Part shown: positions 1 to 22,861 of the stretch, one piece after another | How the letters are laid out: each line of letters starts with the position of its first letter | Numbering within the stretch: position 1 is the stretch's first letter | Assembly (NCBI RefSeq): GCF_003721225.1 | Contig: NZ_RIZI01000150.1 | Coordinates: forward strand, 1-22,861 | DNA from: Acidithiobacillus sulfuriphilus | Lineage (GTDB): Bacteria > Pseudomonadota > Gammaproteobacteria > Acidithiobacillales > Acidithiobacillaceae | Length of the DNA stretch: 22,861 nucleotides | Direction of reading: 5' to 3' | The notes under the pieces: generated by a model | The model's input: only the letters and a program-made list of their open reading frames with translations | The model's database searches: none | What the model was told of the DNA's origin: nothing | Position numbers and translations under genes: made by a program

Positions 1-1450
1 CGATGGCCCGCCGCAAAAATTCCTCCGGCGGATTATATACCGGCAGGATCACCGAAAAGCGGGGCGGGTTGACGAAGGACCGGATACGGTTGCGGATGGC
101 ATCCCGGTCGTCATCGGACAAGGTGTCGTAGCAACGCAGATACTCCCCATAGCCGTCGGCCGTCTCGTCCGATTCCGCCGATGCCTCGGCGGAAAGGAGG
201 GGCCGGCGATCCTCCTCCCCCCGAAGAATGCGCCATGCCCCCTCCGGGCGCCGGGTCAGCGGCAGCGGTCCGGCCGCCTGCGCGTCGCTTTCCAGGGAAA
301 AAGGCGTTTCCCGAACCCTGCCCCGCAACAACAGATCGAGGGCGCGGAAAGGCCGGGTGATGCGCCAGTAGCGACCGCGCCGCAGGCCCTCCATCCCCTC
401 CTGCAGCGACAGCGCCACCCGTTGCAGATGCTGGTTTTGGGCCTGCAGGCTGGCCACTCGCTCCTCCAGCACCGCCTTGGCCCGCGCCATCTCGATCCGC
501 TCGGCCTCCGCCACCCGCAGCCTGGACGCGGAGGGGATGACGGCCGTGCCGCCATCCTCCCATTGGGAGAGCCGCCGTTCCAGGACGCGGCCATGATAGA
601 GGATCTCCTCCATCCAGTTGAATAGCGGCGCCCAGCTCAACCACCGGCGCAGCAGCGCATCCCATTCCTCCCAGAATGCCGGGGGAGGGGGTCCGCCGAT
701 GCCGCAGGCCCGGCCTAGCAGGGCGCGCACCGCCTCCATGGGCTCCGGCAGCGGCATCTCCGCTGCCCCTTTCACCCGCCCCCGATGGTGGCGCAATTCC
801 GGGCGGACGGGCAGATCGGCGCCGGCATGTCCCACCAACCCCAAAAACCTCTCCACACGCGGCCCTTGCTCCGCCGGCTGATCCAGGAGCCGGTCGTAGT
901 CCACGAACAACGGGCCGAATTCCCGCCATGCCCCCAGGCCCACCAGGTTGTAATGGGTCCAGAGCAGGAGCCCGTGGGCCAGGGGAAAGCCGTCGCGCCG
1001 CTGCAGCGAGCGCGCCACCGCCAGCGGATCGCGCACCGCCGCCAAGACCCGCACCGGGCGTCCGCAGTTCCGCAGCAACGGCGACCAGAAGGGCGCCAAT
1101 ACCGTCATCCGCGGGTCCTTGACGGCAAAGCGCGGGTAACGCCCCAAGCGCTCGCCCAGCCAGTTTGCCGCCGCCGACCGCACATCCCGCAGCCCTTCCC
1201 CGGCAAAGGCATCGGGCAAGAGCGGGCGCGCGTCGTTCCAATGGCTGGCCAGGCGCTCCAGCGCCAGGTCATCCAGGCGGACCGCCTCCTGATCTTCGTA
1301 AAATCCTTCGGGATTATCCGCCGCGGCGGGCAGCACCGCGGCGCCAAAATCGTACCCCAGGCCGGCCCGCGCCATTTGCGCCAGGAGGCTGGTGCCGCTG
1401 CGATGCATGCCCAGCAGGACGAGCATCTCCTTGCCACCCGCGCCCGTCAT
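1..1450 (-). CDS. Sulfotransferase-like / coiled coil / GT2 glycosyltransferase fusion (C-terminus beyond window start)
   Basis: The frame is open from an ATG at 1450 to the window edge (483 codons), so the C-terminus is missing. The N-terminus reads LLGMHRSGTSLLAQM (about residues 12-26), a P-loop-like 5'-phosphosulfate-binding motif of the sulfotransferase family. A later VRDPLAVARSL matches the 3'-phosphate loop. A charged segment around residues 295-355 looks like a coiled coil and leads into YWRITRPFRAL, a phrase common in the linkers of large polysaccharide glycosyltransferases. The last visible residues, FSVILPVYNPPEEF, are the first strand of a GT2 (GT-A) glycosyltransferase domain. 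Its ATG overlaps the stop of the upstream GT4 gene as ATGA, which supports this start and translational coupling. Inferred role: building or sulfating a surface glycan. It could instead be a catalytically inactive sulfotransferase-like fold; the acceptor is unknown. Confidence 0.85.
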   Translation of the reverse strand, partial: MTGAGGKEMLVLLGMHRSGTSLLAQMARAGLGYDFGAAVLPAAADNPEGFYEDQEAVRLDDLALERLASHWNDARPLLPDAFAGEGLRDVRSAAANWLGERLGRYPRFAVKDPRMTVLAPFWSPLLRNCGRPVRVLAAVRDPLAVARSLQRRDGFPLAHGLLLWTHYNLVGLGAWREFGPLFVDYDRLLDQPAEQGPRVERFLGLVGHAGADLPVRPELRHHRGRVKGAAEMPLPEPMEAVRALLGRACGIGGPPPPAFWEEWDALLRRWLSWAPLFNWMEEILYHGRVLERRLSQWEDGGTAVIPSASRLRVAEAERIEMARAKAVLEERVASLQAQNQHLQRVALSLQEGMEGLRRGRYWRITRPFRALDLLLRGRVRETPFSLESDAQAAGPLPLTRRPEGAWRILRGEEDRRPLLSAEASAESDETADGYGEYLRCYDTLSDDDRDAIRNRIRSFVNPPRFSVILPVYNPPEEFLRRAI

Positions 1451-2436
1451 CCCGCCAGCTCCCGGAAAAGCCCGGCGTAGCCTTGGGCCGCCCGCTCCCA
1501 GGTGAACAGGGCCGCCCGCGCCCGGCCCCGCCGCGCCAGGTTGCGGCGCAGCCGGGGCTCATCCATGACCCGCCGCATGGCGTCGGCGATGTCCTGGGTA
1601 TCCTCCGGGTCCACCAGCAAGGCGGCGTCTCCCGCCGCCTCCCGGCAACCGCTGCCCGCGCTGGTGATCACCGGGCAGCCGCTCGCCATGGCCTCCAGCA
1701 AGGGCAGGCCGAAGGTCTCGCGCAGACTCGGCGCCACCAGCGCCAGGGCCTGCCGGTAGAGTTCCGCCAAGCGCTCCTGGGGGAGCCCCTCGCCCAGCAG
1801 GCGCACCCCCGGCGGCACCGGCCGATCCACCGGGTATCCCGGCAGCACGGCCAGCAGTTCCGGGCGCTTCGCCGCCAGCCGGGAATAGGCCGCAAGGACC
1901 CGTTCCGTATTCTTCACCGGCTGCCAGGCCGCCACATGCAAAAAGAAACGCGGTTGCCGAATCGGCAGGAGGCTCATCCGGAAGGACGGGCGGAACAGCC
2001 CGCCATCCACCCCATGCGCCACCACGCGCAGCCGCTGCGCGGCCACCCCGTATACCTGCCCCGCCTCCTCGGCCCCGAAATGGGAAGGGCTGACCACCCA
2101 CACCCGTTCCCGCAGTTCCGCCCAGTCCCGCAACAGCCCCGCGCGCACCGCATCGGCATCCGGGCCGTCCTCCCGCCCCGGTCGGACGAAGGGGCGCAGG
2201 CCGTGGATGGTCACCAGCACCGGCATCCGTCCCGCCGCCGCCCGCACGGCCGGCGCCGTCAGCCGCCATCCCGCCCCCGGTTCCCAAAGGACATCCGCCG
2301 CCGGCGGCGCCTCCTCCTCCCGGCAGGGCTGCATGACGATCCCCAGGCGTTCCAGGCGCGGCACCAGCGCCTCCACGAAAACCCGCAGACTAAAAGGATC
2401 CCGCTCGCGCCGGATCCAGGCGACCCGCAAGGACAT
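1447..2436 (-). CDS. GT4-family (group 1) glycosyltransferase
   Basis: This 329-residue protein has the GT-B layout of retaining group 1 glycosyltransferases. The N-terminal acceptor half ends near AHGVD (140-144). The donor half begins at FFLHVAAWQPVKNT (164-177), which carries the usual nucleotide-sugar-contacting lysine. The EX7E signature is present as E240-TFGLPLL-E248, followed by the AMASGCPVITS strand. It should transfer a sugar from an activated nucleotide donor in the cytoplasm; donor and acceptor cannot be read from the sequence. It starts 3 bases after the stop of the upstream TPR/GT41 gene, and its own stop overlaps the next start, so the three genes look like one operon. The N-terminal half is short for the family, but no frameshift is evident. 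Confidence 0.92.
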   Translation of the reverse strand: MSLRVAWIRRERDPFSLRVFVEALVPRLERLGIVMQPCREEEAPPAADVLWEPGAGWRLTAPAVRAAAGRMPVLVTIHGLRPFVRPGREDGPDADAVRAGLLRDWAELRERVWVVSPSHFGAEEAGQVYGVAAQRLRVVAHGVDGGLFRPSFRMSLLPIRQPRFFLHVAAWQPVKNTERVLAAYSRLAAKRPELLAVLPGYPVDRPVPPGVRLLGEGLPQERLAELYRQALALVAPSLRETFGLPLLEAMASGCPVITSAGSGCREAAGDAALLVDPEDTQDIADAMRRVMDEPRLRRNLARRGRARAALFTWERAAQGYAGLFRELAG

Positions 2437-2439
2437 GCT

Positions 2440-4572
2440 TCAGGCCGGCACGTTCAGGTCTTCCGCCGGAAGCCCGCCGGAATAGCGCGACCAGGCGCGC
2501 TCATAGCCCCACTCCAGGGCGCGGACGGTCGTGGTGGTATCGAACAGCGCGGCGCCATCGCGCAAACCCCGCACCCGTTCCTGCCAGGAGCGGCGCAGAC
2601 CGGCATCCTGGCCCAGGCGCAGCGCCATCTCCGCATAGGCGTCCCAGTCCGCCGTTACCCCTTCAGGGAAACCCAGCGCCCGCAGCGCGCTTTCCGCCAC
2701 CCGCCCGGCGAAGGTATCCCCCCGCGCGGTAAGCACCGGCACCCCCGCCCACAGGGCGTCCGTAGCCGTGGTGTGGGCGTTGTATAAGCGCGTGTCCAGA
2801 AAGAGATCGGCCAATTGCAGGCGCGTCAGGTGCGCCTCGCGGGGCAAGCGGCGGGCAAAGACCAGACGCTGGCCCTCCACCCCCCGGGCCTCGGCCTCGC
2901 GCTGCAGGTTGGCCTGCATCTCGCGGGTGGATTGCAGCAACCACAGCACGCTGCCCGGCGTTTCCCGCAGCACCCGGCACCAGCGGTCAAAGATATAAGG
3001 GTCGATCTTGTAGCTGTTGTTCATGGAGCAGAACACCATCCCCTGCTCCGGCAGGCCCTCGGCGCTGCGGCTCGGCGGCGCTCCCAGGGCCACCTCCCGG
3101 TGGCTGTTGATCTGGTAGCAATGGGGCAGGCGCAACAGCCGCTCCGAAAAGGCGTCCTCCTCCCCTTGGGGAGTGACCACCGCGTCGCCGATGAGGTAAT
3201 CCACATACTCGGCCCCGGAACTCCCCGGATAGCCCAGATAGTTGATCTGCACCGGCGCCGGGCGCCGGGCCAGCACGCCGATGCGGTTGTCGCGGGTATG
3301 CCCCATCAAGTCCACCAGAACCTGGATGCCATCGGCGGCGATGCGCTCCGCGATCTCCTTGTCCGGCAGGCGGAAACACTCCACGAAGTGCTCCACGCTG
3401 GACTGGATGATCTGGCGATGGGGGCTGAAGTCCTCCGCCGCCGTGCTGTAGAGGAAGACCTCCACCCGCTCGCGGTCATGGAGGCGGAACAGGTCGCGCA
3501 GCAGGTGCGCCGTGGGGTGCTCCTTGACGTCCGCGCTCAGATAACCCACCCGCAGACGCCCCCCGTTCAGGTTCTCGGCCCGCCAGATGGGCGACGGCAG
3601 GCCCAGGGCGGCGCCGGCGCTGATCCCCGCGTTCACCGCCCGCTGCTCCCGCGCCGACAGCGATGCGTAGAGCACGGTGAAGCCGCGCACCTGGGGCGCC
3701 TGCCCCGCCGCCAGCGCATCGCGCACATAGCCCACGAAATCCGCCTCCACCGCCTCCACGTCCTGCCAGTCGCAGGCCTGGCGCATGGCCTCGTAGAGCC
3801 CGTCCAGCACCTGCGGATGGCGCGGCGTGCGCCGCCAGGCCTCCCGGTAGGTCCGGATGGCGTCCTCGCGGCGATCCATGAGCGCCTGGCAGGAGGCGAG
3901 ATTCACCGCCACATCGCTGATCTGCGGGTGCGTCTGCAAGATCTGCTCGTAGCGCGCCGCCGCCAGATCCAGATGCCCCAGAGCGTGGAAGGTGGACGCC
4001 AGATTCAGGGCGAAGTCCACCCGCTCCGGCTGCAATACCGCCGCCAGTTGCAGCCACGGCAGCGCCCCCCCCAGGTCGCCCTGGCGGCGCAGGCACATGC
4101 CCAGGCCCGCCGCCGCCAGAGGGAATACCGGCCGCAGCGTCAGCGCCCGCCGGTAGGCCGCCTCCGCATCTCCGAAGCGCCCCTCCAGCATCAGCGCCTC
4201 GCCCAGATTGGAGTGGGCCTCGGCGTTCTGGGGCATCAGGCGCATGGCCGTCTCCAGATCCGCCACCCCCTCGGCGCCGCGCCCCAGGCCGCGCAGGATC
4301 TGCCCGCGGGTGTTGTGGTAGTACGACTGGTTGGGGTTGCGGGCCATGGCCTCCTCCACCAGCGGCAGCGCGTCCGCCGGTCGCCCGCGCTGATAGAGCA
4401 CCGCGCCCAGCAGGTGCAGGGCATCCCCATGACCGGGCGCCGCCTCCAGGATGCGCCGGTAGAGATCCTCCGCCTCGTCCAAGGCCCCCGTCCGATGCCG
4501 GGCGATGGCGTGCTGCAGGGCGGTTTCCAGGGGAATCTGCTGGGGAACGGGATTAGCGCTGCTCATAGTCAT
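2440..4572 (-). CDS. TPR / GT41 (SPINDLY, O-GlcNAc transferase-like) protein glycosyltransferase
   Basis: The protein has 710 residues. Residues 15-255 form about seven tetratricopeptide repeats (for example AEAHSNLGEALMLEGRFGDA). Residues 338-690 form a GT41-type GT-B catalytic region. Landmarks shared with human OGT are visible: LRVGYLSADVKEHPTAHL with the active-site-region His352, NNSYKIDP with Lys522 at the place of the UDP-contacting lysine, SVLWLL, and DTRLYNAHTT followed by ALWAGVPVLT (593-615). The family moves a sugar from a nucleotide donor onto protein Ser/Thr, or onto Asn in the HMW1C branch, in the cytoplasm. The exact donor and target here are unknown. The first ATG is chosen because AAGGA lies 6 bases upstream; a second ATG follows two codons later. 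It is the first gene of the minus-strand operon and has a TATAAT box just upstream. Confidence 0.93.
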   Translation of the reverse strand: MTMSSANPVPQQIPLETALQHAIARHRTGALDEAEDLYRRILEAAPGHGDALHLLGAVLYQRGRPADALPLVEEAMARNPNQSYYHNTRGQILRGLGRGAEGVADLETAMRLMPQNAEAHSNLGEALMLEGRFGDAEAAYRRALTLRPVFPLAAAGLGMCLRRQGDLGGALPWLQLAAVLQPERVDFALNLASTFHALGHLDLAAARYEQILQTHPQISDVAVNLASCQALMDRREDAIRTYREAWRRTPRHPQVLDGLYEAMRQACDWQDVEAVEADFVGYVRDALAAGQAPQVRGFTVLYASLSAREQRAVNAGISAGAALGLPSPIWRAENLNGGRLRVGYLSADVKEHPTAHLLRDLFRLHDRERVEVFLYSTAAEDFSPHRQIIQSSVEHFVECFRLPDKEIAERIAADGIQVLVDLMGHTRDNRIGVLARRPAPVQINYLGYPGSSGAEYVDYLIGDAVVTPQGEEDAFSERLLRLPHCYQINSHREVALGAPPSRSAEGLPEQGMVFCSMNNSYKIDPYIFDRWCRVLRETPGSVLWLLQSTREMQANLQREAEARGVEGQRLVFARRLPREAHLTRLQLADLFLDTRLYNAHTTATDALWAGVPVLTARGDTFAGRVAESALRALGFPEGVTADWDAYAEMALRLGQDAGLRRSWQERVRGLRDGAALFDTTTTVRALEWGYERAWSRYSGGLPAEDLNVPA

Positions 4573-4843
4573 CCTTTTTCCTTCTCTATTTAAGATTATA
4601 AGAGAATCGTGATAATAAAATTAGAGGATCATGAAACAAAGTCTTGCACAGCCCCGGCACGCCTGACAAGTTGTCCGGCAAGCGTATCTCCACCGCGCCA
4701 TGGCCCATCGTTAAGCGAATTCAGCAAAAAAGACAATGCGTAAGGCGCGGTAACTCCCATTTTCCACCGGCGGCGGGCCCCTTGGGGAGAAAGGCTCCGA
4801 TTCCCGGGCGCGCGATGGCGGCACCGCCTCCATCCGCAACAAC
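4573..4843. other. Intergenic region between DUF3617-like gene and GT operon
   Basis: Apart from the AT-rich promoter-like segment next to 4572, nothing recognisable is seen here. A plus-strand open frame crosses it, but it continues antisense through the DUF3617-like gene, has no family signature and is not called. Confidence 0.5.
4595..4600 (-). promoter_or_regulatory. Putative -10 box (TATAAT) of the glycosyltransferase operon
   Basis: On the minus strand an exact TATAAT sits about 22 bases before the ATG at 4572, inside a short AT-rich stretch (roughly 4573-4625) that stands out from the GC-rich surroundings. No convincing -35 hexamer lies 16-18 bases further upstream; the sequence there is AT-rich. 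The implied transcript would have a leader of about 15 bases containing the Shine-Dalgarno sequence. Inferred from position and sequence only. Confidence 0.45.
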
Positions 4844-5281
4844 CTATTTCTTCCCGCAATCCGGCGCCGTCCACCGCCCCTTCATCACCATCGTCGTCGT
4901 GCTTGCCGGCCCCTGGTCGGGGGTCTCCACCATGCGCCAATGCGCCAGAAAGGAGCGCGCCGTGCTTTGCGTCCAGCCTTTTTGCGCGACCTGGGCATGG
5001 GGCATGGTGCAACGGATGGACCACGCCTCGCGGCCGGCCCCCAGGGCATGATGAGCCGTCAGGCAAAGCTGGTGATGCTGCGGCAGAAAGGCGTTTTCGG
5101 CGGGTTCGTGGGGCGCGATGCACAGCGTGACGCGGCGCCGCACCGGCTCGTTCACGTTCGCGCCGGGCACCCGGATATGGCCCGTCACGGTCATCTGCCA
5201 GAGGCCGGGCGCCATCCCGGCGGCCAGGGCGGAAGGAATGCAGAAAACGGCGGCCAGCAGCGGAATCAGGACTCTGCGCAT
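4844..5281 (-). CDS. Small exported DUF3617-like protein
   Basis: This 145-residue protein begins with a signal peptide (MRRVLIPLLAAVFCIPSALA, cleavage likely after residue 20). The mature part opens with PGLWQMTVTG (25-34), which resembles the 'pGlWe' opening of DUF3617 proteins. It has four cysteines (54, 73, 91, 142) that could form disulfides in the periplasm. The ATG at 5281 is chosen over longer in-frame starts because AGGAG lies 7 bases upstream and a signal peptide follows at once. The function of DUF3617 proteins is unknown. It is separated from the upstream glycosyltransferase operon by about 270 bases and is divergent from the adhesin-like gene, so it is probably transcribed alone. 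The family assignment rests on a short motif plus cysteine spacing. Confidence 0.75.
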   Translation of the reverse strand: MRRVLIPLLAAVFCIPSALAAGMAPGLWQMTVTGHIRVPGANVNEPVRRRVTLCIAPHEPAENAFLPQHHQLCLTAHHALGAGREAWSIRCTMPHAQVAQKGWTQSTARSFLAHWRMVETPDQGPASTTTMVMKGRWTAPDCGKK

Positions 5282-5460
5282 GGGATTTCTCCTTTTATGG
5301 TTGCGAAAGCCGATGATGGCCATCCGTCCATCCCTATGCAATACCCGGCCCATGCGTCGGCCGGCACCACACCCGGAGACCAGGATCTCCCATGGCCCCA
5401 TGGTCGGGCATCTCCGCATTCCGCAATGCGTCGGCGAACGGGCGGATCACCCGTTATTTG

Positions 5461-5489
5461 TTGCACGAATCCCAATCCAGGGCTAAACT
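5461..5489 (+). promoter_or_regulatory. Putative sigma70-like promoter of the adhesin-like gene
   Basis: TTGCAC (5461-5466) and TAAACT (5484-5489) are separated by exactly 17 bases, upstream of the adhesin-like start at 5552. Matches to consensus are partial (3/6 and 4/6), so this is a plausible promoter, not a secure one. The leader would be about 55 bases. Confidence 0.35.
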
Positions 5490-5551
5490 CACGATGAAAC
5501 GCTGATGCAACATCTGCGTTTTCCCTTCACCACATGATGGAGAACCGTAAC

Positions 5552-7966
5552 ATGCACATCAAAAGCAAACGTCGCCTGAATACCATCGCGGTATCCGTGG
5601 CCCTGGCCCTCTCGGCCCCCGCCGCCTTCGCCCTGCCCACCATCGCCCCCACCCAGTTGCCCGGCAACGGCGCCGTCGCCTACGGCACCGCATCGGCATC
5701 GATCAACGCCAACACCAACACCGGCACCGTGACCGTCGCCTCCGGCGCCACCGTCATCGACTGGGGCGTGAGCACCGGCGCCACCCTCTTCTCCGGCAGC
5801 ACCACCCCCGGCTTCAACATCGGCGCCTCGGCCGCGGTGATCTTCAACAACAGCAGCGCCGGCGCCGCCCAGGTGCTGAACGTGGACGTGACCGGCAACC
5901 CCACCCAGATCTACGGCGCCCTGTCGGCCACGGCGGCCCTGACCGGCTCCGGCTATAGCCCGCAGATCTTCGTGGCCAACGCCAACGGCATCGTCGTCGG
6001 CAACGGCGCCACCATCACGGTGCACCAGGGTCTGGGTCTCATCAATGCCGACCTCAGCGGCAGCGCCGCGCAGTCCCTGGCCACCATAGGCGTCCTGCCC
6101 CTCTCCTTCCAGGGCGCCACGGGCGGCGTGAGCATCTCCGCCGGGGCCGACCTGCACGGCATCGGCCACTTCCTGCTGGTGGCCGGCGCGGGCACGGTCA
6201 ACATCGCCGGCAACGTCGGCACCACCGCCACCGAGCCCAATGTCCCCTTGTACATCGACGGCGGCGTGGGCGGCTATGCCACCCCCACCGGCTTCGTTCA
6301 GCGTGACACCGGCACCACCAGCAACTACGATAGTAGCTTCGTGTATCAGGCGGCCCCCACCACGGTCAACCTGAACCTGGGCACCACCCAGTCGGCCTAT
6401 AACCTGGTCAGTGGTTCCATGATCGGCGTGAACGGCGACCTCAACGTCTCCGGCAACATCGCCAACATCGCCCAAAGCGAAATCTCCTGGGCCGGCACCT
6501 TCACCAACACCGGCATCCTGCAGAGCGGAACCCAGAGCGGCGTGTCCCTTGCGCCGTACACCGGTCATACCTACCTGACCAGTTACAACGGGATTTACAA
6601 CAACACCACCATGGCCGCCCAGGGCGGCTTTGTGAACGCCTCCGGCGCCATCCTGAACGCCGGCTACTACCTGTCGTTCACCGGCGCCTCCTTCGACAAC
6701 GAGGGCACCATCAACCTCGGCGGGGCCACCTATAACGAGATGTACATCAACGCCACCCAAGGCAACATCACCCTGGGCGGGACCATCAGCCTGATCAACA
6801 CCGGCACCACGGGGTCGCCCAACCATCCTTACCTGGGCTACGTTGATCTGTATGCCGACAGCATCGTCGGCCAGACCGTCAACATCAATACCGCGCTGAA
6901 CAATGTAACTAACGACGTCTACGTCTCCGCCACCAACCTCAACGTCAACGCCCCGGTGTCGGTGAGTTCCAGCGGCTCTAGCTTTTACTTCGAGCCCATG
7001 GGCAGCAAGAACACCTCCGCCGCCCCGGTCATGAACAGCATGAACGTCTCCAGCACCGGCTCCATTTCCGCCGGGGATGTGTATATCGGCACCACGAATA
7101 ACGGCTACCAATCCGTCACCAACCTGACCGTCAACGGCAGCATCGCCGCCACCGGTTCCGGCGGAAAGGTATCCCTGGGATACGGATACGAAAGCACCTA
7201 CGGCTATTTTAGCGCCATCAACAACGTCTCCGGCGCGGGCTTCATCTCCGGCGACAACATCGACTTTGCCAACCTCATCGGCTCGGTCAACAACATCACC
7301 GGCGGCCAGATCCTCAGCAACGGCTTCCAGCTCAAGGCCGGACCCAGCGGCGGCAGCAACATTTCCGTGAGCATGGTCGGCAATCATCCCCAGGGCTTCA
7401 ACGTCAAGGTGGCGGGCAACGTCGTCCTCGACAGCGGCAGCACCTCGGCCACCAGCGAGACCGGCAACGGCTTCCAGGTCACGCCGCCCGCCAACCTCAA
7501 CAGCCGCCTGGTCGTCCAGGCCACCGGCAACATGCTGGTGAATGCGGGTACCACAGGAATGAGCGATGGCGAGTTCCAGGTCCCCGGCCTGGTCTACCTG
7601 CTGGCCAACCAGTCCCTGACGGTGAACACCACCATCGACAACGCCTACACCACCAACGCCCCCGTGGGCTACGGCGTGTGGCTGCTCAGCCCGGTGATCA
7701 ACGACCTGTATCCGATCTTCACCAACGGCAACAGCGGCGTGAACTTCATGAACACCAACTACGGCTACGCCAGCAGCATCAACGGCGCCAACCCGGCGTT
7801 GATGGCCACGGAGAACCTCATCAACACGGTTCCCACCGGCCAGAACTTCCCGGCGCCCACGGTGTACTTCAACACCACGGGCTCCGGCAGCGGCACCGTC
7901 CTGCCGTACTTCGTCAACGGCAAGGGCTACCTGCAGGAAATGCAGACCTTCCTGACCATGCCGTAA
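5552..7966 (+). CDS. Exported adhesin-like protein with filamentous-haemagglutinin-type N-terminus (paralogue 1)
   Basis: The ATG at 5552 is preferred over two slightly earlier ATGs because GGAGA lies 8 bases upstream and a classic signal peptide starts there (MHIKSKRR, hydrophobic core, SAPAAFA; cleavage near residue 27). The 804-residue product is rich in Asn, Ser, Thr, Gly and Ala, poor in Lys and Cys, and made of irregular beta-helix-like repeats. Residues 87-155 carry the signature order of the haemagglutinin-activity (TPS) domain: GFNIG, NPTQIYGAL (116-124), then VANANGIVVGNGA (141-153), in the place of the usual NPNGI motif. The C-terminus shares landmarks with the two proteins at the right end of the window: LVYL, a TNGNSGVNF block, PTVYF and terminal QTFL. 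At least fifteen NX(S/T) sequons are visible. Likely surface-exposed or secreted. It is much shorter than typical two-partner-secretion adhesins, and no TpsB transporter is in view. Confidence 0.88.
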   Translation: MHIKSKRRLNTIAVSVALALSAPAAFALPTIAPTQLPGNGAVAYGTASASINANTNTGTVTVASGATVIDWGVSTGATLFSGSTTPGFNIGASAAVIFNNSSAGAAQVLNVDVTGNPTQIYGALSATAALTGSGYSPQIFVANANGIVVGNGATITVHQGLGLINADLSGSAAQSLATIGVLPLSFQGATGGVSISAGADLHGIGHFLLVAGAGTVNIAGNVGTTATEPNVPLYIDGGVGGYATPTGFVQRDTGTTSNYDSSFVYQAAPTTVNLNLGTTQSAYNLVSGSMIGVNGDLNVSGNIANIAQSEISWAGTFTNTGILQSGTQSGVSLAPYTGHTYLTSYNGIYNNTTMAAQGGFVNASGAILNAGYYLSFTGASFDNEGTINLGGATYNEMYINATQGNITLGGTISLINTGTTGSPNHPYLGYVDLYADSIVGQTVNINTALNNVTNDVYVSATNLNVNAPVSVSSSGSSFYFEPMGSKNTSAAPVMNSMNVSSTGSISAGDVYIGTTNNGYQSVTNLTVNGSIAATGSGGKVSLGYGYESTYGYFSAINNVSGAGFISGDNIDFANLIGSVNNITGGQILSNGFQLKAGPSGGSNISVSMVGNHPQGFNVKVAGNVVLDSGSTSATSETGNGFQVTPPANLNSRLVVQATGNMLVNAGTTGMSDGEFQVPGLVYLLANQSLTVNTTIDNAYTTNAPVGYGVWLLSPVINDLYPIFTNGNSGVNFMNTNYGYASSINGANPALMATENLINTVPTGQNFPAPTVYFNTTGSGSGTVLPYFVNGKGYLQEMQTFLTMP

Positions 7967-8001
7967 GCGCTTTATCAGCGGTAGTTGTATCGAGCAAGAG
8001 G

Positions 8002-8028
8002 GGGGCCGGGAAACCGGCCCCTTTTTTT
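8002..8028 (+). terminator. Rho-independent terminator after adhesin-like gene
   Basis: An 8-bp perfect stem (GGGGCCGG / CCGGCCCC) with a GAAA loop is followed by seven T. It starts 36 bases after the stop codon at 7966, so transcription of the adhesin-like gene should end before the next TPR/GT41 gene. Confidence 0.93.
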
Positions 8029-8179
8029 GTTCGGGAATCCGCCGCCGTCATCCAGGAATGAAATCCCCATCCGGCCACCCAAGCATGGTGGGTTGCAATC
8101 AAAAAGGCTGCTATGCTGGATCGCGCGGGCCATGCGCCGTTGCCCGAATAGCCGATCACCATGCGCTTGAGAACCCCTT

Positions 8180-10648
8180 ATGGCCGCCGATCTACCGCCC
8201 TTGTCCGTCGCTGACGCCTTGCGAGAGGCCGTCGCCCATCATCACGCCGGGCGCTTGCCGGAGGCGGAACGGCTCTATCGCGCCATCCTGCGGGTGCAGC
8301 CGGGCCATCCGGACGCCCATCACAATCTCGGCGTCCTGATCTCCCAGACCGGACGCCCGGCGGATGCCTTGCCCCATCTGGCCAGCGCGCTGGCGTCCAG
8401 CCCGGCCTGCGAACCATACGCCTTGTCCTATGCCGGCGCGCTGCTGCATGCCGGGCGTGCCGAGGAGGCGCTGCTGCTGATTCAGACCGCCATGGGGCGC
8501 GGCCTCGACTCTCCCAACACGCGCGCCCTGCGGCAAGGGGCGGAGACGGCCATCCTGGCTCCCCTGGCGGCCCTGTTTCAGGCCGGGCGTCATCCGGAGC
8601 TGCAAGCCATGGCGCGCGCGCTGCTTGCCCGGCAGCCCGGTTTCGGATTCGTCTGGAAGGCCCTCGGGGTATCGCTGCTGGCGGAAGGGAAAAGCGACAT
8701 GGCCGTCTGGCGCAAGGCGGCGGAGCTGCTGCCCGGAGATGCCGAGGTGCACTACAATCTGGGCCTCGCGCTGCACAATAGCGGCCAGCCCGAAGACGCG
8801 CTGGCGTGCTGGCGCCGGGCGCTGGCGATCCGGCCGGGATTCGCCGAGGCGCATAATGCGATGGGCAACGCCCTGCAGGACATGGGGCAGTCCGCCGACG
8901 CGGTGGCCTGCTATCGCCGCGCCCTGGAGATCCGGCCGGATTTCGCGGAGGCGCACAACAATCTCGGCAACGCCCTGCACAACATCGGCCGATCCGCCGA
9001 GGCGGCGGGCTGCTATCGCCGCGCCCTGGAGATCCGGCCGGATTTCGCGGAGGCGCACTATAACCTGGGCAGGATCCTGATGGTGCTCGGCAGATCCGGC
9101 GACGCGGCGGCTTGCTGCCGTCGCGCGCTGGAGCTCAAACGCGACTTTCCGGAGGCGCTCAACATTCTCGGCAACGCCCTGCAAAGCATCGGGCAGGCCA
9201 CGGAGGCGGTGGCCTGCTACCGCCGCGCCCTGGAGATCCGGCCGGATTTCGCCGGGGCCCACAACAATCTCGGGAACACCCTGCAACGCCTGGGGCAATT
9301 CACGGACGCGGTGGCCTGCTATCGCCGCGCCCTGGAGATCAGCCCAAATCATGCGGAAGCGCACAGCAATTTCCTGTTCTGTCTCAGCCACGGCGAGGAG
9401 GTGGATGCGCCGACGCTCTTTGCCGAACACTGCCGTTTCGCCGACCGATTCGAGCATCCCCTGCGCGGCCAATGGCCCCGGCACCGCAACTCCCGGGAGC
9501 CGGAACGCCGGCTGCAAGTGGGCATCGTCTCCGGAGATCTCCGCGACCATGCCGTGGCGTATTTCATCGAGCCGGTCCTGGCGCATTTGGCGGGCCGCCG
9601 GGGGCTGGCGCTGCATGGGTACCATAATCATCGGCACGAAGACGACGTCACCCGGCGCCTGCGCGCCCATCTGCGCCACTGGCACCCGGTTGCCGCCTGG
9701 TCGGACGCGGCCCTGGCGGAAAAAATCCGCGAGGACGGCATCGACATCCTCATCGACCTTTCGGGGCACACCGCCAACAACCGCTTGCTGACCTTTGCCC
9801 GCAAACCGGCGCCGATCCAGCTCACCTGGATCGGCTATCCCAATACGACGGGGCTGCGGGCGATGGACTATGTGCTGATGGATCCGTTCAACGCCCCTTA
9901 CGGGGCTTATGAGCATGACTATGTGGAGAAATTCGCGCGCATTCCCAGTTCCCGCACCTTTTTGCCCTTCGCAAGCGCCCCGCCCGTCAATGAGCTGCCC
10001 GCCCTCGGGAGCGGCAGTGTGACCTTCGGCAGCTTCAACAGCCCCGGCAAGCTGAACCAAGGCACGCTCCTGCTGTGGAGCCGGGTGCTCCGGGCGGTGC
10101 CCGGCTCCCGCTTGCTGCTGGGCAACGTCGGCGAGGGCGCCCTGCGGGAAAGACTGGCGGAAGACTTTGCCCGTTGCGGCGTGTCCGCAGAGCGCGTGAC
10201 CTTCCAGCCGCCCATGAAAATGGCCGATTATCTGGCGTTGCATCATCAGGTCGATTTCATCCTGGATACCACCCCCTACACCGGCGGAACCACCACCAAC
10301 CATGCCCTGTGGATGGGCGTGCCGGTGTTGACCATCACCGGCCCTTCCTCCACCCGATGCCTCTGCGCCGGGATTCTGGGCCGGGTGGGATTGACGGACT
10401 GGGTCGCCGACGACGCCGACGACTTTGTGCGGCGCGCGGTGGAATGGGCCGGGAGGCTGGAGGAATTGGCCGGGCTGCGGGCGGGAATGCGGGACCGCTT
10501 GCTTCACTCTCCGCTGCGGCAACCCCAGACCGTGGCGAAAGGGTTGGAGATCGCGCTCAGGACGATGTGGCGGCGCTGGTGCGCGGGGTCGCCCGTGGAA
10601 AGTTTCGAGATCGCCCTGGAAGAGTTGTCTTCGGGCGAATGGGAATAA
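8180..10648 (+). CDS. TPR / GT41 (SPINDLY-like) protein glycosyltransferase, second copy
   Basis: The protein has 822 residues. Residues 10-115 are TPRs, 116-185 are less regular, and 189-395 hold six highly similar 34-residue TPRs of the form VACYRRALEIRPDFAEAHNNLGNAL. Residues 443-800 are the GT41 region: LQVGIVSGDLRDHAVAYF with His457, LIDLSGHTANNRLL, QLTWIGYPNTTGL, SPGKLNQG with Lys624, and DTTPYTGGTTTNHALWMGVPVLT (696-718). This is the bacterial SPINDLY branch and should glycosylate a protein partner in the cytoplasm. The residue after the active-site-region histidine is Ala, where Pro is usual. It follows an exported Asn/Thr-rich protein on the same strand, though a terminator lies between. 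The Shine-Dalgarno is weak (GAGA), so the exact start is less sure than the frame. It converges on the aldolase gene with 18 bases between stops. Confidence 0.93.
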   Translation: MAADLPPLSVADALREAVAHHHAGRLPEAERLYRAILRVQPGHPDAHHNLGVLISQTGRPADALPHLASALASSPACEPYALSYAGALLHAGRAEEALLLIQTAMGRGLDSPNTRALRQGAETAILAPLAALFQAGRHPELQAMARALLARQPGFGFVWKALGVSLLAEGKSDMAVWRKAAELLPGDAEVHYNLGLALHNSGQPEDALACWRRALAIRPGFAEAHNAMGNALQDMGQSADAVACYRRALEIRPDFAEAHNNLGNALHNIGRSAEAAGCYRRALEIRPDFAEAHYNLGRILMVLGRSGDAAACCRRALELKRDFPEALNILGNALQSIGQATEAVACYRRALEIRPDFAGAHNNLGNTLQRLGQFTDAVACYRRALEISPNHAEAHSNFLFCLSHGEEVDAPTLFAEHCRFADRFEHPLRGQWPRHRNSREPERRLQVGIVSGDLRDHAVAYFIEPVLAHLAGRRGLALHGYHNHRHEDDVTRRLRAHLRHWHPVAAWSDAALAEKIREDGIDILIDLSGHTANNRLLTFARKPAPIQLTWIGYPNTTGLRAMDYVLMDPFNAPYGAYEHDYVEKFARIPSSRTFLPFASAPPVNELPALGSGSVTFGSFNSPGKLNQGTLLLWSRVLRAVPGSRLLLGNVGEGALRERLAEDFARCGVSAERVTFQPPMKMADYLALHHQVDFILDTTPYTGGTTTNHALWMGVPVLTITGPSSTRCLCAGILGRVGLTDWVADDADDFVRRAVEWAGRLEELAGLRAGMRDRLLHSPLRQPQTVAKGLEIALRTMWRRWCAGSPVESFEIALEELSSGEWE
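8806..9363 (+). repeat. 102-bp tandem repeats encoding TPR units
   Basis: Six in-register units begin near 8806, 8908, 9010, 9112, 9214 and 9316, exactly 102 bases (34 codons) apart. Units at 8908 and 9010 share a 49-base stretch (8908-8956 = 9010-9058) without a mismatch; 9214 is nearly the same, and 8806, 9112 and 9316 have diverged more. The conservation extends to synonymous positions, which suggests recent duplication or gene conversion inside the TPR domain. Confidence 0.9.
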
Positions 10649-11488: not shown

Positions 11489-11638
11489 GGCCCATTCCTC
11501 TCGGGAAAGCCCGATTACAGCACATACCGCCAGCTTCGAGAAGGATCCCGGTGGCCGTCTGTTGGTGACCATCACTAGACGGTGTGCATCCATTGTACTA
11601 ACATTGCGGCAGTTGATCTAACAAACCGAGGTGCTGTT

Positions 11639-11926
11639 ATGACCGCCGTCCCATCCACTTCTTCCCGCTCGGCCCGTCTCGGCTTGCGTGCCACGCCGGA
11701 ACAGGAGGCCGTGCTGCGCCGCGCCGCTGACGTGGCGCGCAAGTCGCTGACCGACTTCATCCTCGACAGCGCCTGCCAAGCGGCCGAGGAGACCTTACTC
11801 GACCAGCGTCTTTTCATGGCGTCGGGCAGCCAGTATCAGGCGCTGCTCGATATGCTGGAGCGGCCCGAACAGGCCAATGAGCGCTTGCGAGACCTGTTCG
11901 CCCGCAAAGCGCCCTGGGAAACCTGA
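11639..11926 (+). CDS. DUF1778 (TacA-type) antitoxin
   Basis: The 95-residue protein has an N-terminal ribbon-helix-helix DNA-binding segment (SARLGLRATPEQEAVLRRAA, then KSLTDFILDSA), as in DUF1778 antitoxins. The C-terminal half (about residues 55-95) would wrap and neutralise the partner acetyltransferase. The ATG at 11639 has GAGG 8 bases upstream and starts just before the RHH; a longer in-frame start at 11582 adds an unsupported leader. The TGA stop overlaps the toxin start as TGATG. Such antitoxins repress their own operon together with the toxin; I could not define the operator in the 150-base divergent spacer with confidence. Confidence 0.92.
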   Translation: MTAVPSTSSRSARLGLRATPEQEAVLRRAADVARKSLTDFILDSACQAAEETLLDQRLFMASGSQYQALLDMLERPEQANERLRDLFARKAPWET

Positions 11927-12570: not shown

Positions 12571-13389
12571 ATGAAGCGCGACGACGCAGTCCCCACGGAC
12601 ACCCAACCGGCTCCCTTCGAGCAGGCCTTGCGCTCGGCCATCCAACACCACCAGGCGGGACGGCTGGCCGCGGCGGAACAAGACTATCGCGCCGCCTTGT
12701 CCTTCCAGCCCCTTCACCCCCAAGCCATCCACAACCTCGGCGCCCTGGCCATCCAGGCCGGCAATCCCGAAGCCGGCGCCGCGCTCTTGCAACAGGCGTT
12801 GCGGTTGCAGCCCGAGTACCCGGATGCCGCCGTCAACCTCGCCGTGGTCCTCAACAATCTGGGACGGCTGGCGGAGGCCGAAGCCGTGATCACCCGGGCC
12901 CTGGCGACCCACCCGGACCATCCGGGCATGGCCGCCGCCCTGGGCATGATCCTCCTGAACGAGGGGCGGCTGGCGGAGGCCGAGTCCGCCCTGCTGCGCA
13001 GCCTCTTTCGCGACCCGGATCGACCCGACGCATGGTTCAGCCTGGGCATCGCCCTGCTCCATCAGGATCGCCCCGAGGAAGCCTTGGAGGCGCTCCGGGA
13101 AGCGCTGAACGTCCGCCCGGATTTTCCCGAGGCGTCCACGCACCTGGGCCTGCTCCTGCTGCGCCTGGACCGGCGGGAAGAAGCCCATGCCGTCCTGCGC
13201 GCCGCCCTCCGTTTCGCGCCGGATTTTCCGGAATCCTTGTTCCACCTGGCCTGGACGATCACCGAAGAGGATCTCCGGCAATCCGCAGATCGCGACGGAT
13301 GGGAATGGCCCCCGGACCGCGGGGATGAGCGCGTTCCGGACGCTGCTCCCGGCATCGGGCCCCTGGCCGGCCTCGCCCACGACCAATGA
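12571..13389 (+). CDS. TPR-repeat protein without catalytic domain
   Basis: The 272-residue protein consists almost entirely of about six TPRs (for example HPQAIHNLGALAIQAGNPEA and RPEEALEALREALNVRPDF), followed by a short acidic tail (about residues 230-272) with no recognised domain. Its first 45 residues closely resemble the N-termini of the two GT41 proteins (ALxxAIxHHxAGRLxxAExxYRxxL). It may therefore be a TPR scaffold or adaptor, or the remains of a GT41 or sulfotransferase gene that lost its catalytic half. The ATG at 12571 gives a start like its relatives; the only nearby purine stretch (GGAGA) is 13 bases away, so the start is uncertain, and an in-frame ATG at 12496 is possible. It precedes the TPR-sulfotransferase by 55 bases and is probably co-transcribed. 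A TATAAT-like element (12469-12474) lies upstream, without a good -35. Confidence 0.82.
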   Translation: MKRDDAVPTDTQPAPFEQALRSAIQHHQAGRLAAAEQDYRAALSFQPLHPQAIHNLGALAIQAGNPEAGAALLQQALRLQPEYPDAAVNLAVVLNNLGRLAEAEAVITRALATHPDHPGMAAALGMILLNEGRLAEAESALLRSLFRDPDRPDAWFSLGIALLHQDRPEEALEALREALNVRPDFPEASTHLGLLLLRLDRREEAHAVLRAALRFAPDFPESLFHLAWTITEEDLRQSADRDGWEWPPDRGDERVPDAAPGIGPLAGLAHDQ

Positions 13390-13444
13390 CGGCCGGCGCC
13401 GCGGCGCCGAGCCCCGCCATGCACAACTACAGGAGGTACCCCGC

Positions 13445-15445
13445 ATGAACCACGACTTCCAGCCCAGCGTCGGCCCCGACTCCCCGGGGGCGGACGGACC
13501 CGGTGATTGGCGCCGCGTCGCCGCGCAGTGCCGCCAGACCCTGGCCATGAACCCGCAGGACGCCCAGGCCCTCGCCCGCCTGGGCAGCGCGCTGGCCCAG
13601 GGCGGCCAGACCGACGCGGCCATCGCCGCCCTGGAGCAGGCCGTGCGCCTGCGCCCGGAAATCCCCTGGCGCCGCGCCCTCGCCAACGCCTGCATCGGCG
13701 CGGGGCGTTTTGCGGACGCCGTCCGGACGCTGACCCTGGTGGCCGCCCTGGCGCCAAGGGACAGCGAGGTGCGCCTGCAACTGGCGGGCCTGCACTTGCA
13801 TCTCGGCCAGCCGGCGGAGGCCGAACGCCAGGCCCGCGCCGCCCTCGGCCTGGCCCCCCGCTCCGCCCCGGCGCTGCACACCCTGGGCCAGGTATTCTCC
13901 GCGCAGGGGCGCCACCCCGAGGCCATAGGCGCCTTCAGCGAGGCCCTGCGCCTGGCGCCGGGCTCCATCGACTCCCGCTTCGGCCTCGCCACCGTCCATC
14001 AGCACCTGGGCCATTTCAGCACCGCCGAAACCCTCTACACCGAAATCCTGCGCGGCCGCCCCGACCACCACGGCGCCCGCATCAATCTCGGCAACTGCGT
14101 CCAGGCCCTGGGCCGGGGCGAGGAGGCCATCCGTCTGTTCCGCGCCGTCCTGCGCGACGACCCGCGCTCCCTGGAGGGCCGCGTGAATCTCTGTTCGGCC
14201 CTGGTGCAGGAAGGCCGGGGCGCCGAAGCCCTGCGCGTCAGCGCCGACTACACCCCGCCCGCCGGCCGGGAGGCCGACTGGACCGCCATCCGCGCCCTCA
14301 TCTTCGAGCGCCTGGGCCGCCTGGAGGAAGCCGCCGCCCTGCTGCGGCCCTTCGTCCATCCCGACTGCGCCGCCCGCCAGGTGGTGAACTTCGCCGGCAT
14401 CGCCAAGCGCCTGGGCGGCGAACGGGCGCAGGAGGCGGTGGGCTACCTGCGCGCCTGGCTGGAGCGCAACGCCGGCGGCGTGCCCCTGCCGGAGCTGCGC
14501 GCCGCCCGCTTCCTGCTCGGCGACCTGCTGGACCGCCTGGGCGAACCAGACGCCGCCTTCGCCGCCTACGACGCGGCCAACCGCACCGGCGGCATGCGCA
14601 TGGATCGCGCCGCGCTGCTCGCCCTGCTGGGGGAGCTGGAACGCCATCCGCCCACCGCCGCCGAGGCGCCGGAAGCCGATGAGGAGGACGGCGCGGATCT
14701 GGTCTTCGTGCTGGGCATGCCCCGCTCCGGCACCACCCTCGCCGAACGCATCATCGCCAGCCACCCCCAGGGCTGGGGCGCCGGGGAGCGCACCACCATC
14801 GGCGCCATCGCCGCGGAACTGGGGGGCGGCGAGCCGCTCCGCTACCCCGCCCGCCTGGCCACCCTCACCCGCGGCGAAAGGGACACCCTGCGCCGGCGCG
14901 TGCGCGACGCCCTCGGGGCGCCCCGCGGCCCCACCCGCATCGTCGACAAGATGCCCGCCAATTTCCTGCATCTGGGGCTCATCCTCCGGCTTTTTCCGGC
15001 GGCGCACATCGTCCACACCCTGCGCGACCCCCGCGACACCTGCCTGTCCTGCTATTTCCAGAACTTCGTCGGCGAGCATCCCTACAAGCATGACCTCGGG
15101 GACCTCGGCTTCTATTACCGCCTGCACGAAGGCTTCATGGACCACTGGCAGCGGGTCTTTCCGGGCCGCATCCACGTCCTGCGTTATGAGGCGCTCATCG
15201 ACGACTTCACCGGCGAGGCGCAGCGCCTCCTGGATTTCCTGGGCCTGCCCTGGGCGGAGTCCTGCCGTGATTTCCATCAGGATGCCCACGGCGTCAAAAC
15301 CGCCAGCTACGCCCAGGTCAACCGCCCCATCTACCGCGACAGCCTGGGCCGCTGGCAACCCTACGCCGCCCACCTGGGCCCCCTCTTCGCCGCCCTGGAG
15401 GCGGGCGTGGAGAACGAGGCGGAGAAGCAGGATGCCCTGCCGTGA
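13445..15445 (+). CDS. TPR-sulfotransferase fusion protein
   Basis: The 666-residue protein has about eight TPRs (residues 25-300 clearly, degenerate to 380), a short acidic linker, then a PAPS-dependent sulfotransferase domain (418-650). The 5'-phosphosulfate loop is GMPRSGTTLAERI (424-436). KMPANFLHLGLI follows at 502-513, and the 3'-phosphate motif is TLRDPRDTCLSCYF (525-538). Related bacterial TPR-sulfotransferases resemble tyrosylprotein sulfotransferases, but the acceptor (glycan or protein) is not known. The ATG at 13445 is well fixed by AGGAGG 8 bases upstream; the open frame extends further left but overlaps the preceding gene. Co-transcription with the TPR-only protein is likely. 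The TPR domain suggests the enzyme docks on a protein substrate, as GT41 enzymes do. Confidence 0.93.
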   Translation: MNHDFQPSVGPDSPGADGPGDWRRVAAQCRQTLAMNPQDAQALARLGSALAQGGQTDAAIAALEQAVRLRPEIPWRRALANACIGAGRFADAVRTLTLVAALAPRDSEVRLQLAGLHLHLGQPAEAERQARAALGLAPRSAPALHTLGQVFSAQGRHPEAIGAFSEALRLAPGSIDSRFGLATVHQHLGHFSTAETLYTEILRGRPDHHGARINLGNCVQALGRGEEAIRLFRAVLRDDPRSLEGRVNLCSALVQEGRGAEALRVSADYTPPAGREADWTAIRALIFERLGRLEEAAALLRPFVHPDCAARQVVNFAGIAKRLGGERAQEAVGYLRAWLERNAGGVPLPELRAARFLLGDLLDRLGEPDAAFAAYDAANRTGGMRMDRAALLALLGELERHPPTAAEAPEADEEDGADLVFVLGMPRSGTTLAERIIASHPQGWGAGERTTIGAIAAELGGGEPLRYPARLATLTRGERDTLRRRVRDALGAPRGPTRIVDKMPANFLHLGLILRLFPAAHIVHTLRDPRDTCLSCYFQNFVGEHPYKHDLGDLGFYYRLHEGFMDHWQRVFPGRIHVLRYEALIDDFTGEAQRLLDFLGLPWAESCRDFHQDAHGVKTASYAQVNRPIYRDSLGRWQPYAAHLGPLFAALEAGVENEAEKQDALP

Positions 15446-15578: not shown

Positions 15579-16400
15579 TTGAACCTGCGAATCGAATACC
15601 CTGCCTGTCCCCTTTGCGCGGAATCCGGCGCGGCGCTCGGCACCGCCGATTGCACCCGCCATCCATTATGGCATGAACCATTGCCGCGCTCCCTGGAGTG
15701 GATGCGCTGCACGGGTTGCGGCCATGCTTATACCCATTACTACTGGTCCGCGGACGGCCTGAAAGAGGTTTTCGCCAAAGCCCACTCCAACCAGTTGGCC
15801 GGTGGTGATGCGGATGTGAAACGCACTGTCTGGGCGCCGGTCATTGAACGAACGGTGTACGCCTTGGGGGGCCACCTGGCGATAACGAACGGAGAACGCC
15901 TCCCGACCTGGCTGGATGTCGGCTGCGGAGACGGCGCCTTGGTGATGACCGCCTCGGATTTCGGCTTTCATGCCATCGGCCTGGATGCTCGTGCGGATGC
16001 CGTAGCGCGGATTCAGGCATTGGGGTTTTCCGCGCAACAAGTGGATTTTATGAATGTCCTGCTGGACGAGAAGGTCGATGTCATTTCCATGATGGACGTC
16101 CTGGAACATATACCATATCCGGCGCGCGCCTTGGAAAAGGCAAATATGCTGTTGCGTCCGGGCGGCCTTCTGGTGATCAGCCTCCCTGATTTAACCTCTT
16201 CCAGTTGGCGCATCATGGACGCCATGGGAACCAACCCTTATTGGATGGAAATCGAGCACCATCATAATTTCAGCCGTGGCCGGCTGGCCCGCCTGCTCAA
16301 ACAATGGGGGTTCATCATTGCGGATTTTGCCATCCCGTATCGTTACAAGGCGCAGATGGAGATTTATGCCATCAAAGAGGAGCCGGAACAAGGAATATAG
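15579..16400 (+). CDS. Class I SAM-dependent methyltransferase with N-terminal zinc ribbon
   Basis: The 273-residue protein has a four-cysteine zinc-ribbon-like N-terminus (C10-x2-C13 and C44-x2-C47), then a Rossmann methyltransferase domain. Motif I is WLDVGCGDGA (111-120), the acidic end of strand 2 is GLDAR, and SMMDVLEHIP (170-179) is motif IV; then LLRPGGLLVISLP. This architecture is common in sugar and surface-polysaccharide loci. The start is TTG at 15579: GAGGA lies 6 bases upstream, an in-frame TAG sits two codons before it, and the next ATG would remove the zinc ribbon. The substrate is unknown; methylation of a glycan is the likeliest role given the neighbours. Transcription may continue from the sulfotransferase gene 133 bases upstream. 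Confidence 0.9.
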   Translation: MNLRIEYPACPLCAESGAALGTADCTRHPLWHEPLPRSLEWMRCTGCGHAYTHYYWSADGLKEVFAKAHSNQLAGGDADVKRTVWAPVIERTVYALGGHLAITNGERLPTWLDVGCGDGALVMTASDFGFHAIGLDARADAVARIQALGFSAQQVDFMNVLLDEKVDVISMMDVLEHIPYPARALEKANMLLRPGGLLVISLPDLTSSSWRIMDAMGTNPYWMEIEHHHNFSRGRLARLLKQWGFIIADFAIPYRYKAQMEIYAIKEEPEQGI

Positions 16401-16986: not shown

Positions 16987-16998
16987 GGGCGACTCCTT

Positions 16999-22226: not shown

Positions 22227-22280
22227 GATCTCCCTTCCTGTAAAGGCTCTTTCTACCATATCGGCGCCTCGCGTGGAAAC

Positions 22281-22338: not shown

Positions 22339-22861
22339 TTAGTAGAGATTGAGGAAGGTCTGGAACTGCTGCTGGTTGCCGTTGGCGTTGGTGAAGGTGT
22401 CCGTGGGCACCAGTTCCAGGCCGTAGGGATAGGTCGTCGTTGTCGGCACTGTCCGCAGGAAGTCGATCTGCGGCATCAGGTTCGTCGTGGACGACAAGGT
22501 CCCGTTGATGACGGCGTTGGGGAAGCCCAGGCCGTTGTAGGGCGCCGCGAAGACCACACCGGCGTTGCCGTTGGTGTAGAGGACGTTGGCGTAGTAGTTG
22601 ATGGTCGGCGCGATCAGGAAGACCCCGGCCCGGCCGAAGGGGGCGTTGGGACTATAGGCGTTGGCGATCACCACCGGCGTCGTCTGGCTGCCCACGTCCA
22701 GGGTGGTCCCGCTCTGCAGGTACACGAGGCCCGGGAACTGGAAGAGCCCGTAGGTCGTGTTCGGGACCGCGATGCCGCCGTAGTTGTTGGGGGCGGTGGG
22801 ATCCGTGGCGGTGATGCTGCCGCTGGCCTGGACGTAGAGGATGCTGCCGGCGTTGCTGGGA
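22339..22861 (-). CDS. Adhesin-like paralogue 3, C-terminal part (5' end beyond window)
   Basis: The frame is open from the window's right edge to TAA at 22339, giving about 173 C-terminal residues. It aligns without gaps over most of its length with the end of paralogue 2: SILYVQASG, AVPNTT, GLFQFPGLVYLQS, VVIANAYSP, GRAGVFLIAPTIN, YTNGNAGVVFAAPYNGLGF, LELVPTDTFTNANG and the terminal QTFLNLY. The DNA is also close: 22523-22557 is identical to 19972-20006. Its N-terminus, and so its signal peptide and TPS-like domain, is not visible and is inferred by homology. It may belong to a longer tandem array of such genes extending to the right. Confidence 0.88.
   Translation of the reverse strand, partial: PSNAGSILYVQASGSITATDPTAPNNYGGIAVPNTTYGLFQFPGLVYLQSGTTLDVGSQTTPVVIANAYSPNAPFGRAGVFLIAPTINYYANVLYTNGNAGVVFAAPYNGLGFPNAVINGTLSSTTNLMPQIDFLRTVPTTTTYPYGLELVPTDTFTNANGNQQQFQTFLNLY

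Follow-up and report, generated by a model that had tools for sequence, protein, structure and literature searches.

The closest described systems are HMW1A/HMW1B/HMW1C of Haemophilus and EtpA/EtpB/EtpC of E. coli, in which a TpsA adhesin, a TpsB pore and a GT41 glycosyltransferase are encoded together. EtpA and HMW1 are glycosylated adhesins, HMW1 has a Cys-pair anchor, and HMW1C includes an AAD domain where TPR would be (PMC3983070). In Caulobacter, the TPR domain of FlmG binds flagellins, and the GT domain alone neither binds them nor restores their modification (PMC7591256).

In the open-licence literature, TpsA glycosylation was found described only with HMW1C-class enzymes. The same literature yielded no account of an OGT-class GT41 enzyme paired with two-partner secretion, and none, for Acidithiobacillus or acidophiles, of proteins that are FHA-like or secreted by two-partner systems. 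We know of no TPS linkage for human OGT or for bacterial OGT homologues (XcOGT, 5djs). The ability of Acidithiobacillus to attach to minerals is of importance in bioleaching.

The window, i.e. the whole stretch of DNA that was analysed, makes up an entire contig (22,861 bp) in a genome of 2.81 Mb. This genome is designated G000, its relatives G005, G013, G025 etc., and contigs are designated Cn. The window is most likely the greater part of a two-partner secretion locus that brings its own enzymes for protein glycosylation, and the arrangement suggests that enzymes encoded beside the adhesin-like gene put sugars on the adhesin-like protein before export.

Results

Gene content of the window

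The original prediction placed two TPR/GT41 genes around an exported TPS-like protein, and two paralogues of this protein at the other end of the window. All of these genes were confirmed. GTa (2440..4572, minus strand) encodes a TPR and GT41 glycosyltransferase of 710 aa, FHA1 (5534..7966, plus strand) a TpsA-type β-helical exported protein of 810 aa that is a candidate substrate, and GTb (8180..10648, plus strand) a second TPR and GT41 glycosyltransferase of 822 aa. The paralogues are K (19782..22259, minus strand; 825 aa), also a candidate substrate, and L (22339..22860, minus strand), the C-terminal 173 aa of a third paralogue that is cut by the contig end. GTa and FHA1 are divergent, with 961 bp between them. 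GTb starts 213 bp past the end of FHA1 and has the same orientation, hence co-transcription of the two is possible.

GTa forms one run on the minus strand with genes B and A, with a gap of 3 bp between GTa and B and an overlap of 4 bp between B and A. Gene B (1447..2436, minus strand) encodes a GT4 glycosyltransferase (Glycos_transf_1, 93.1 bits). Gene A (2..1450, minus strand), cut at the contig end, encodes a sulfotransferase-like N-terminus (Sulfotransfer_3 24.3 bits, under the cut-off of 27) and the start of a GT2 domain. It is 29% identical over 505 columns to a 1330-aa protein of G025 with GT2 and a methyltransferase-like domain, and a complete homologue of 1156 aa is encoded in G013:C5. 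The plus strand further includes genes for a TPR and sulfotransferase protein (13187..15445; ORF of 752 aa, start probably further downstream; Sulfotransfer_3 144.2 bits) and a class I methyltransferase (15579..16400; Methyltransf_23 87 bits). An HpcH/HpaI-like aldolase-type protein, under the Pfam cut-off, is encoded at 10667-11593.

A toxin-antitoxin cluster (16476-17106, 17846-18324, 18634-19574 and 11926-12423) includes YoeB/YefM and Xre/RES genes, a possible toxin of the GNAT acetyltransferase type, and a DUF5397 gene adjoining a Cas2-like (perhaps VapD) gene. This cluster suggests a mobile or unstable island. Positions 17236-17664 encode an additional SecB (153.2 bits at 17242-17655). 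SecB was found in 28 of the 29 Acidithiobacillaceae genomes that make up the family sample, and two matches only in G000, G005 and, weakly, G017. A dedicated SecB was not counted in the system, since no FHA-like gene was seen on the 15.7-kb contig carrying the second SecB of G005.

GTa and GTb are OGT- and SPINDLY-type enzymes

Both enzymes belong to GT41, as PF13844 (cut-off 25) scores 333.5 bits in GTa and 128.4 bits in GTb, and both show many TPR matches. No other GT41 genes were found in the 2.81-Mb genome (four matches in two genes). Among solved structures, human OGT is the best match of GTa (E 1.9e-119; SPINDLY, E 1.5e-62) and SPINDLY that of GTb (E 5.8e-117; OGT, E 6.6e-104), the TPR repeats being included in these E-values. 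In the catalytic part of GTa, the OGT lobes are matched by stretches of 199.6 and 142.6 bits. Residues 180-804 of GTb align with SPINDLY in a single stretch of 350.7 bits, as compared with 88.0 and 53.6 bits for the OGT lobes. Thus, GTa, being closest to OGT and having TPR and both GT lobes, is of the OGT subfamily, and GTb, closest to SPINDLY in sequence, is of the SPINDLY subfamily. The active-site positions of human OGT appear by eye to be conserved in GTa.

The score of GTa on the NGT model NF049992 is 27.9 bits, far from the equivalog cut-off of 1000, and this model is absent among the best 25 of the 35 matches of GTb. Both enzymes carry TPR, not AAD in its place. The expectation that the enzymes are OGT/SPINDLY-type and not HMW1C was therefore borne out, with one enzyme of each type. 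Given that GTa lacks the HMW1C features tested (curated score and AAD) and that GTb has TPR, the locus is best regarded as a two-partner secretion system whose third partner is of the OGT class. Enzymes of the OGT and SPINDLY subfamilies use Ser/Thr as acceptors. A GDP-mannose dehydratase model is matched in G000 barely over the cut-off (419.4 bits versus 415).

Candidate substrates

The N-terminus of FHA1 is Sec-like by eye. FHA1 and K exceed the cut-off of NCBIfam adhes_NPXG (29.1 bits) by a narrow margin, with 32.4 and 32.8 bits, respectively, and a Pfam search of both gave no match at E <= 0.01. The predicted model of FHA1 resembles TpsA secretion domains, among them those of EtpA and HMW1, and marks FHA1 as a TpsA with an N-terminal TPS domain. 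K is about 40% identical to FHA1, and L is 76% identical to the end of K. Database relatives named Acidithiobacillus sulfuriphilus are 94% identical to K over residues 560-825 and 87% identical to FHA1, which places the source, an acid-loving sulfur bacterium, within Acidithiobacillaceae and close to that species. Among plasmid records, no relative of FHA1 was found at E <= 1e-10, and relatives of GTa at E <= 1e-40 occur in 60, every one less than 60% identical.

Other FHA-like genes of G000 are located on C102, C194 and C76. There is no GT41 on those contigs, since both GT41 genes found are in the window, a point against the proposed role of GTa; GTa would therefore act in trans on their products, if at all. 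FHA-like paralogues stop at contig ends in the window (22339-22860) and on C102 and C194, hence the assembly may have been interrupted by repeats within this gene group. The FHA-like gene of C194 lies directly 3' of a TPR and PgaA-type β-barrel gene (4965-6431; 6582-8580), whose product (PgaA_barrel 32.3 bits, cut-off 27) could be an alternative outer-membrane partner. One stretch of C102 (1-10920) includes the end of an FHA-like gene and genes for a large regulator-like protein, TpsB, a classical TpsA and a LapA-retention-like protein; the TOMM kinase/cyclase similarity of the regulator-like protein and the LapA-retention-like match are both sub-cut-off. A degenerate-looking FHA-like fragment on C76 (11051-11524) consists of two C-terminal-region pieces, and its profile match contains a single in-frame stop.

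Sequons and acceptor chemistry

The substrate candidates were predicted to carry about 15-20 sequons each, and their richness in sequons was put forward with the proviso that it could be simple composition bias. The count was right, as both FHA1 and K have 19 NX(S/T) sequons, but it is at chance level (expected 17.4, sd 3.7, and 15.8, sd 3.4, respectively). The sequon set consisted of 12 window/locus proteins and 32 database proteins, the latter longer than 780 aa; G013:C270 recurs in it as P0008. In these 44 proteins, the counts are close to those of shuffled sequences, with z >2 in two, the third FHA-like protein of G025:C67 (2.79) and P0024 (2.65). Mean sequon z is 0.49 over 34 window and database proteins. 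The conservation of sequon Asn in FHA1 is 0.46, as compared with 0.47 for other Asn, and in all five references the mean conservation of sequon Asn is equal to or lower than that of other Asn. Sequon enrichment was therefore rejected, the counts being at composition level and showing no preferential conservation. Sequons are, moreover, not the proper test, because OGT and SPINDLY act on Ser/Thr.

These data bear on HMW1C-like N-glycosylation, in which FHA1, K and L would receive a hexose from the enzymes on the Asn of NX(S/T). Such a function would be in line with gene company as in hmw1ABC/etpABC (PMC3983070), with the low-scoring NGT-model match of GTa and with the two proteins of elevated z. 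However, GTa scores far under the equivalog cut-off, TPR and not AAD is present, and sequons are neither more frequent than composition gives nor better conserved; we consider this function very unlikely. For OGT/SPINDLY-type enzymes, N-glycosylation is less probable as a reaction, and O-glycosylation of Ser/Thr is the preferred reading.

Association within Acidithiobacillaceae

GT41 was found in five of the 29 genomes and FHA-like genes (by profile) in four, all four among those five. Fisher p for this co-occurrence is 2e-4, or 1.2e-3 without the own genome; these p-values and counts overstate independence, because bins are imperfect and G013:C5 is very close to G000. The contamination of G005 is 7%, and G013 is 85% complete with 5% contamination. 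G013:C5 is 93.7% identical to G000 DNA, though G013 is placed in another genus, and could thus stem from contamination or have been transferred recently. At E <= 1e-5, profile A2 undercounts, as the FHA-like genes at G005:C451 and G025:C8 came from ORF reading/tblastn; G005 and G025 were already counted as FHA-like genomes despite these misses.

All five OGT-type GT41 loci found in the 29 genomes have a TpsA or TpsB gene 0.4-7.1 kb away. The neighbour is FHA1 in the window (961 bp), an FHA-like gene at G013:C61 (377 bp) and G005:C451 (4.9 kb), and a TpsB gene at G005:C195 (1.3 kb) and G025:C64 (7.1 kb). The chance of such proximity at five loci is ~3e-9, a rough, post hoc value that assumes independence and uses cluster counts set by hand. 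The other four GTa-type enzymes of the family are 41-59% identical to GTa. Co-occurrence beyond this locus is thus a feature of GTa-type genes, which recur near TpsA/TpsB in the family. A TpsB of a distant type (23-26% identity) is present in G014, a genome without GT41 or FHA-like match.

The pairing with an adhesin had been proposed for both GT41 genes, and holds in the family for the GTa type; the GTb type stands beside an FHA-like gene only at the window locus. GTb and a gene of G006:C230 are the only SPINDLY-like GT41s found in the family, and the latter is situated, by eye, among sugar-pathway genes in a genome without an FHA-like match. In the G006:C230 enzyme (3-2510), a position that is catalytic in OGT is occupied by Arg, as compared with Lys in the other enzymes of the alignment.

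This distribution bears on whether GTa is the sole adhesin modifier, with GTb belonging to another pathway and standing beside FHA1 by accident. The scarcity of SPINDLY-like genes in the 29 genomes and the sugar-pathway surroundings of the G006 gene speak for such an accident, against which stand the distance of 213 bp between FHA1 and GTb, which share a strand and may be co-transcribed, and the presence outside the family of a GTb relative near a TpsA-type ORF (G061:C120, see below). A sole role of GTa is quite possible, though we do not favour it, and does not conflict with what is proposed here for GTa. In the case of GTb, it is adjacency to FHA1 that hints at a role in adhesin modification.

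Metagenomes and the class level

The 82 FHA-family entries were compared with the best GTa relatives, namely the best 120 of 817, of which 48 were separated by the author where identity falls below about 42%. Five exact coincidences of longest-contig size (24138, 16991, 14408, 15665 and 7890) were found with the 48 (0.14 expected), and source labels agree in all five. With all 120 there are six exact size matches, as compared with a mean of 0.36 and a maximum of 2 at 100 shifted offsets; the sixth match (3529) was discounted, as its source labels disagree. TPR-GT41 genes are thus probably found with FHA-like TpsA/TpsB on metagenome contigs too, an indirect conclusion, reached without use of the bins' contigs.

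In 370 genomes of the class, GT41 and NPXG-type TpsA occur together in 43, versus 29.6 expected (p 5e-4, raw and uncorrected for genome size). GT41 near TpsA was seen by eye on at least one contig, G061:C120, among the matches listed for these genomes; having been read by eye among those matches, this is a lower bound. A general linkage of TPR-GT41 and TpsA in the class was rejected, given one nearby pair among the matches listed. The proposed check by genome co-occurrence supports the association in the family, for the GTa type, and gave a modest result at class level. On G061:C120 (67001-87000), a very long TpsA-type ORF is near two GT41 genes, at least one of them SPINDLY-like, and several sulfotransferase-like genes were seen by eye on this contig. 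The FHA-like family was not found outside G000 in the 370 class genomes at E <= 1e-15, in a search that scored at most two candidates per genome in a sample with few Acidithiobacillaceae.

The contig might instead be a variable surface-polysaccharide/glycoprotein island, in which TpsA genes are passengers and GTa and GTb modify cytoplasmic proteins or other exported ones, for instance flagellin or pilin. The many GT2/GT4, sulfotransferase, methyltransferase and toxin-antitoxin genes speak for such an island, as do the rarity of TpsA linkage among the matches listed at class level and the modification of Caulobacter flagellin by a TPR-glycosyltransferase (PMC7591256). It does not fit with the proximity of all five OGT-type family loci to TpsA or TpsB, nor with the presence of GT41 in every one of the four genomes with FHA-like genes (by profile), and no flagellin or pilin gene was seen by eye in the ORFs of the GT41/TPS loci. 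We judge the island explanation unlikely, and glycosylation of the FHA-like TpsA by GTa remains the preferred one.

TpsB and accessory genes

No TpsB gene is present in the 22,861-bp window. G000 has two, one on C102, directly upstream of the classical TpsA gene, and one on C187. G013:C5 covers window positions 1-1796 (91.9% identity) and positions 2-6850 of the 6851 of C187 (93.7%), with ~557 bp separating the window-like and C187-like parts. On G013:C5, gene A comes after the end of gene B, and next in order are genes for a membrane protein, a likely lipoprotein, a PpiC-type foldase and TpsB. If this order holds in G000, the C187 TpsB gene, putatively the cognate one, would lie ~5.3 kb left of window position 1.

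The TpsB of C187 and G013:C5 is 49% identical to that of G025:C64 and 60% identical over 174 aa to that of G005:C195; identity to the C102-type TpsB is 27%, over 120 aa only. It is thus a separate type that recurs at GT41/FHA-like loci. The PpiC foldase gene adjoins TpsB at G013:C5, G025:C64 and G025:C8, which fits periplasmic handling of unfolded TpsA, and another PpiC gene is at the edge of G005:C451. The likely lipoprotein near PpiC has a lipobox-like N-terminus (by eye) at G013:C5 and G005:C451; in Pfam, the former gives no match and the latter one match under cut-off.

Matches to gene B were found by tblastn at G013:C5, G025:C8, G005:C451, G025:C64 and G025:C67, a recurrence that counts for little because the GT4 family is large. 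A 37% identical relative of the TPR-sulfotransferase of the window is encoded directly upstream of GT41 at G025:C64, and sulfotransferase genes adjoin FHA-like genes at G005:C451 and G025:C8.

Discussion

With moderate confidence, we propose that GTa, with its TPR as guide, O-glycosylates Ser/Thr residues of the FHA-like TpsA in the cytoplasm before export by TpsB. The TPR arm of GTa would bind the newly made FHA-like TpsA in the cytoplasm, and GTa would move a sugar from a nucleotide sugar onto Ser/Thr of the TpsA. Export would then proceed through Sec and the nearby-encoded TpsB, helped by the PpiC-type periplasmic foldase. That the TPR arm picks the substrate is the best reading by analogy with FlmG. 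Extension or sulfation of this first sugar may be the task of the products of genes B and A and of the TPR-sulfotransferase, which for B and A is plausible given that they are in one run with GTa. GTb, as a SPINDLY-like enzyme, may add a second sugar type.

In a more elaborate form, the OGT- and SPINDLY-class enzymes would start two O-linked sugars, GT4/GT2 enzymes would extend them and sulfotransferases would sulfate them. As a whole this scheme is improbable; were it true, sulfate, unlike carboxylate, would keep its charge at the low pH of the habitat of these bacteria, giving an acid-proof charged surface glycoprotein.

The original prediction of a distinct adhesin-glycosylation system thus stands in part, namely as regards the linkage of GTa-type genes and the OGT/SPINDLY class of the enzymes; the sequon evidence fell away, and N-linkage is less likely. 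If GTa does modify the TpsA, recruitment of GT41 enzymes for the modification of adhesins happened at least twice. There would also be an exported candidate substrate for a bacterial OGT, with which the choice of substrates by TPR could be tested directly.

Like HMW1ABC and EtpABC, the locus encodes a protein with a predicted fold similar to the HMW1 and EtpA secretion domains. In contrast to those systems, whose enzymes are of the AAD-HMW1C class, the enzyme here is of the TPR-OGT class, sequons are not enriched, and there are extra GT4, GT2/sulfotransferase-like and PpiC genes. FHA1 contains no cysteine and hence, unlike HMW1, has no Cys-pair anchor. The proposed system would share with FlmG of Caulobacter crescentus a substrate-binding TPR fused to a soluble glycosyltransferase acting on an exported protein; the FlmG substrate, in contrast, is flagellin, which leaves by flagellar export, and its modification requires pseudaminic acid (PMC7591256). 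GTa aligns with human OGT across the TPR and both GT lobes. GTb, aligned over residues 180-804, resembles the SPINDLY protein O-fucosyltransferase, from which it differs in being bacterial and encoded beside a putative secreted adhesin.
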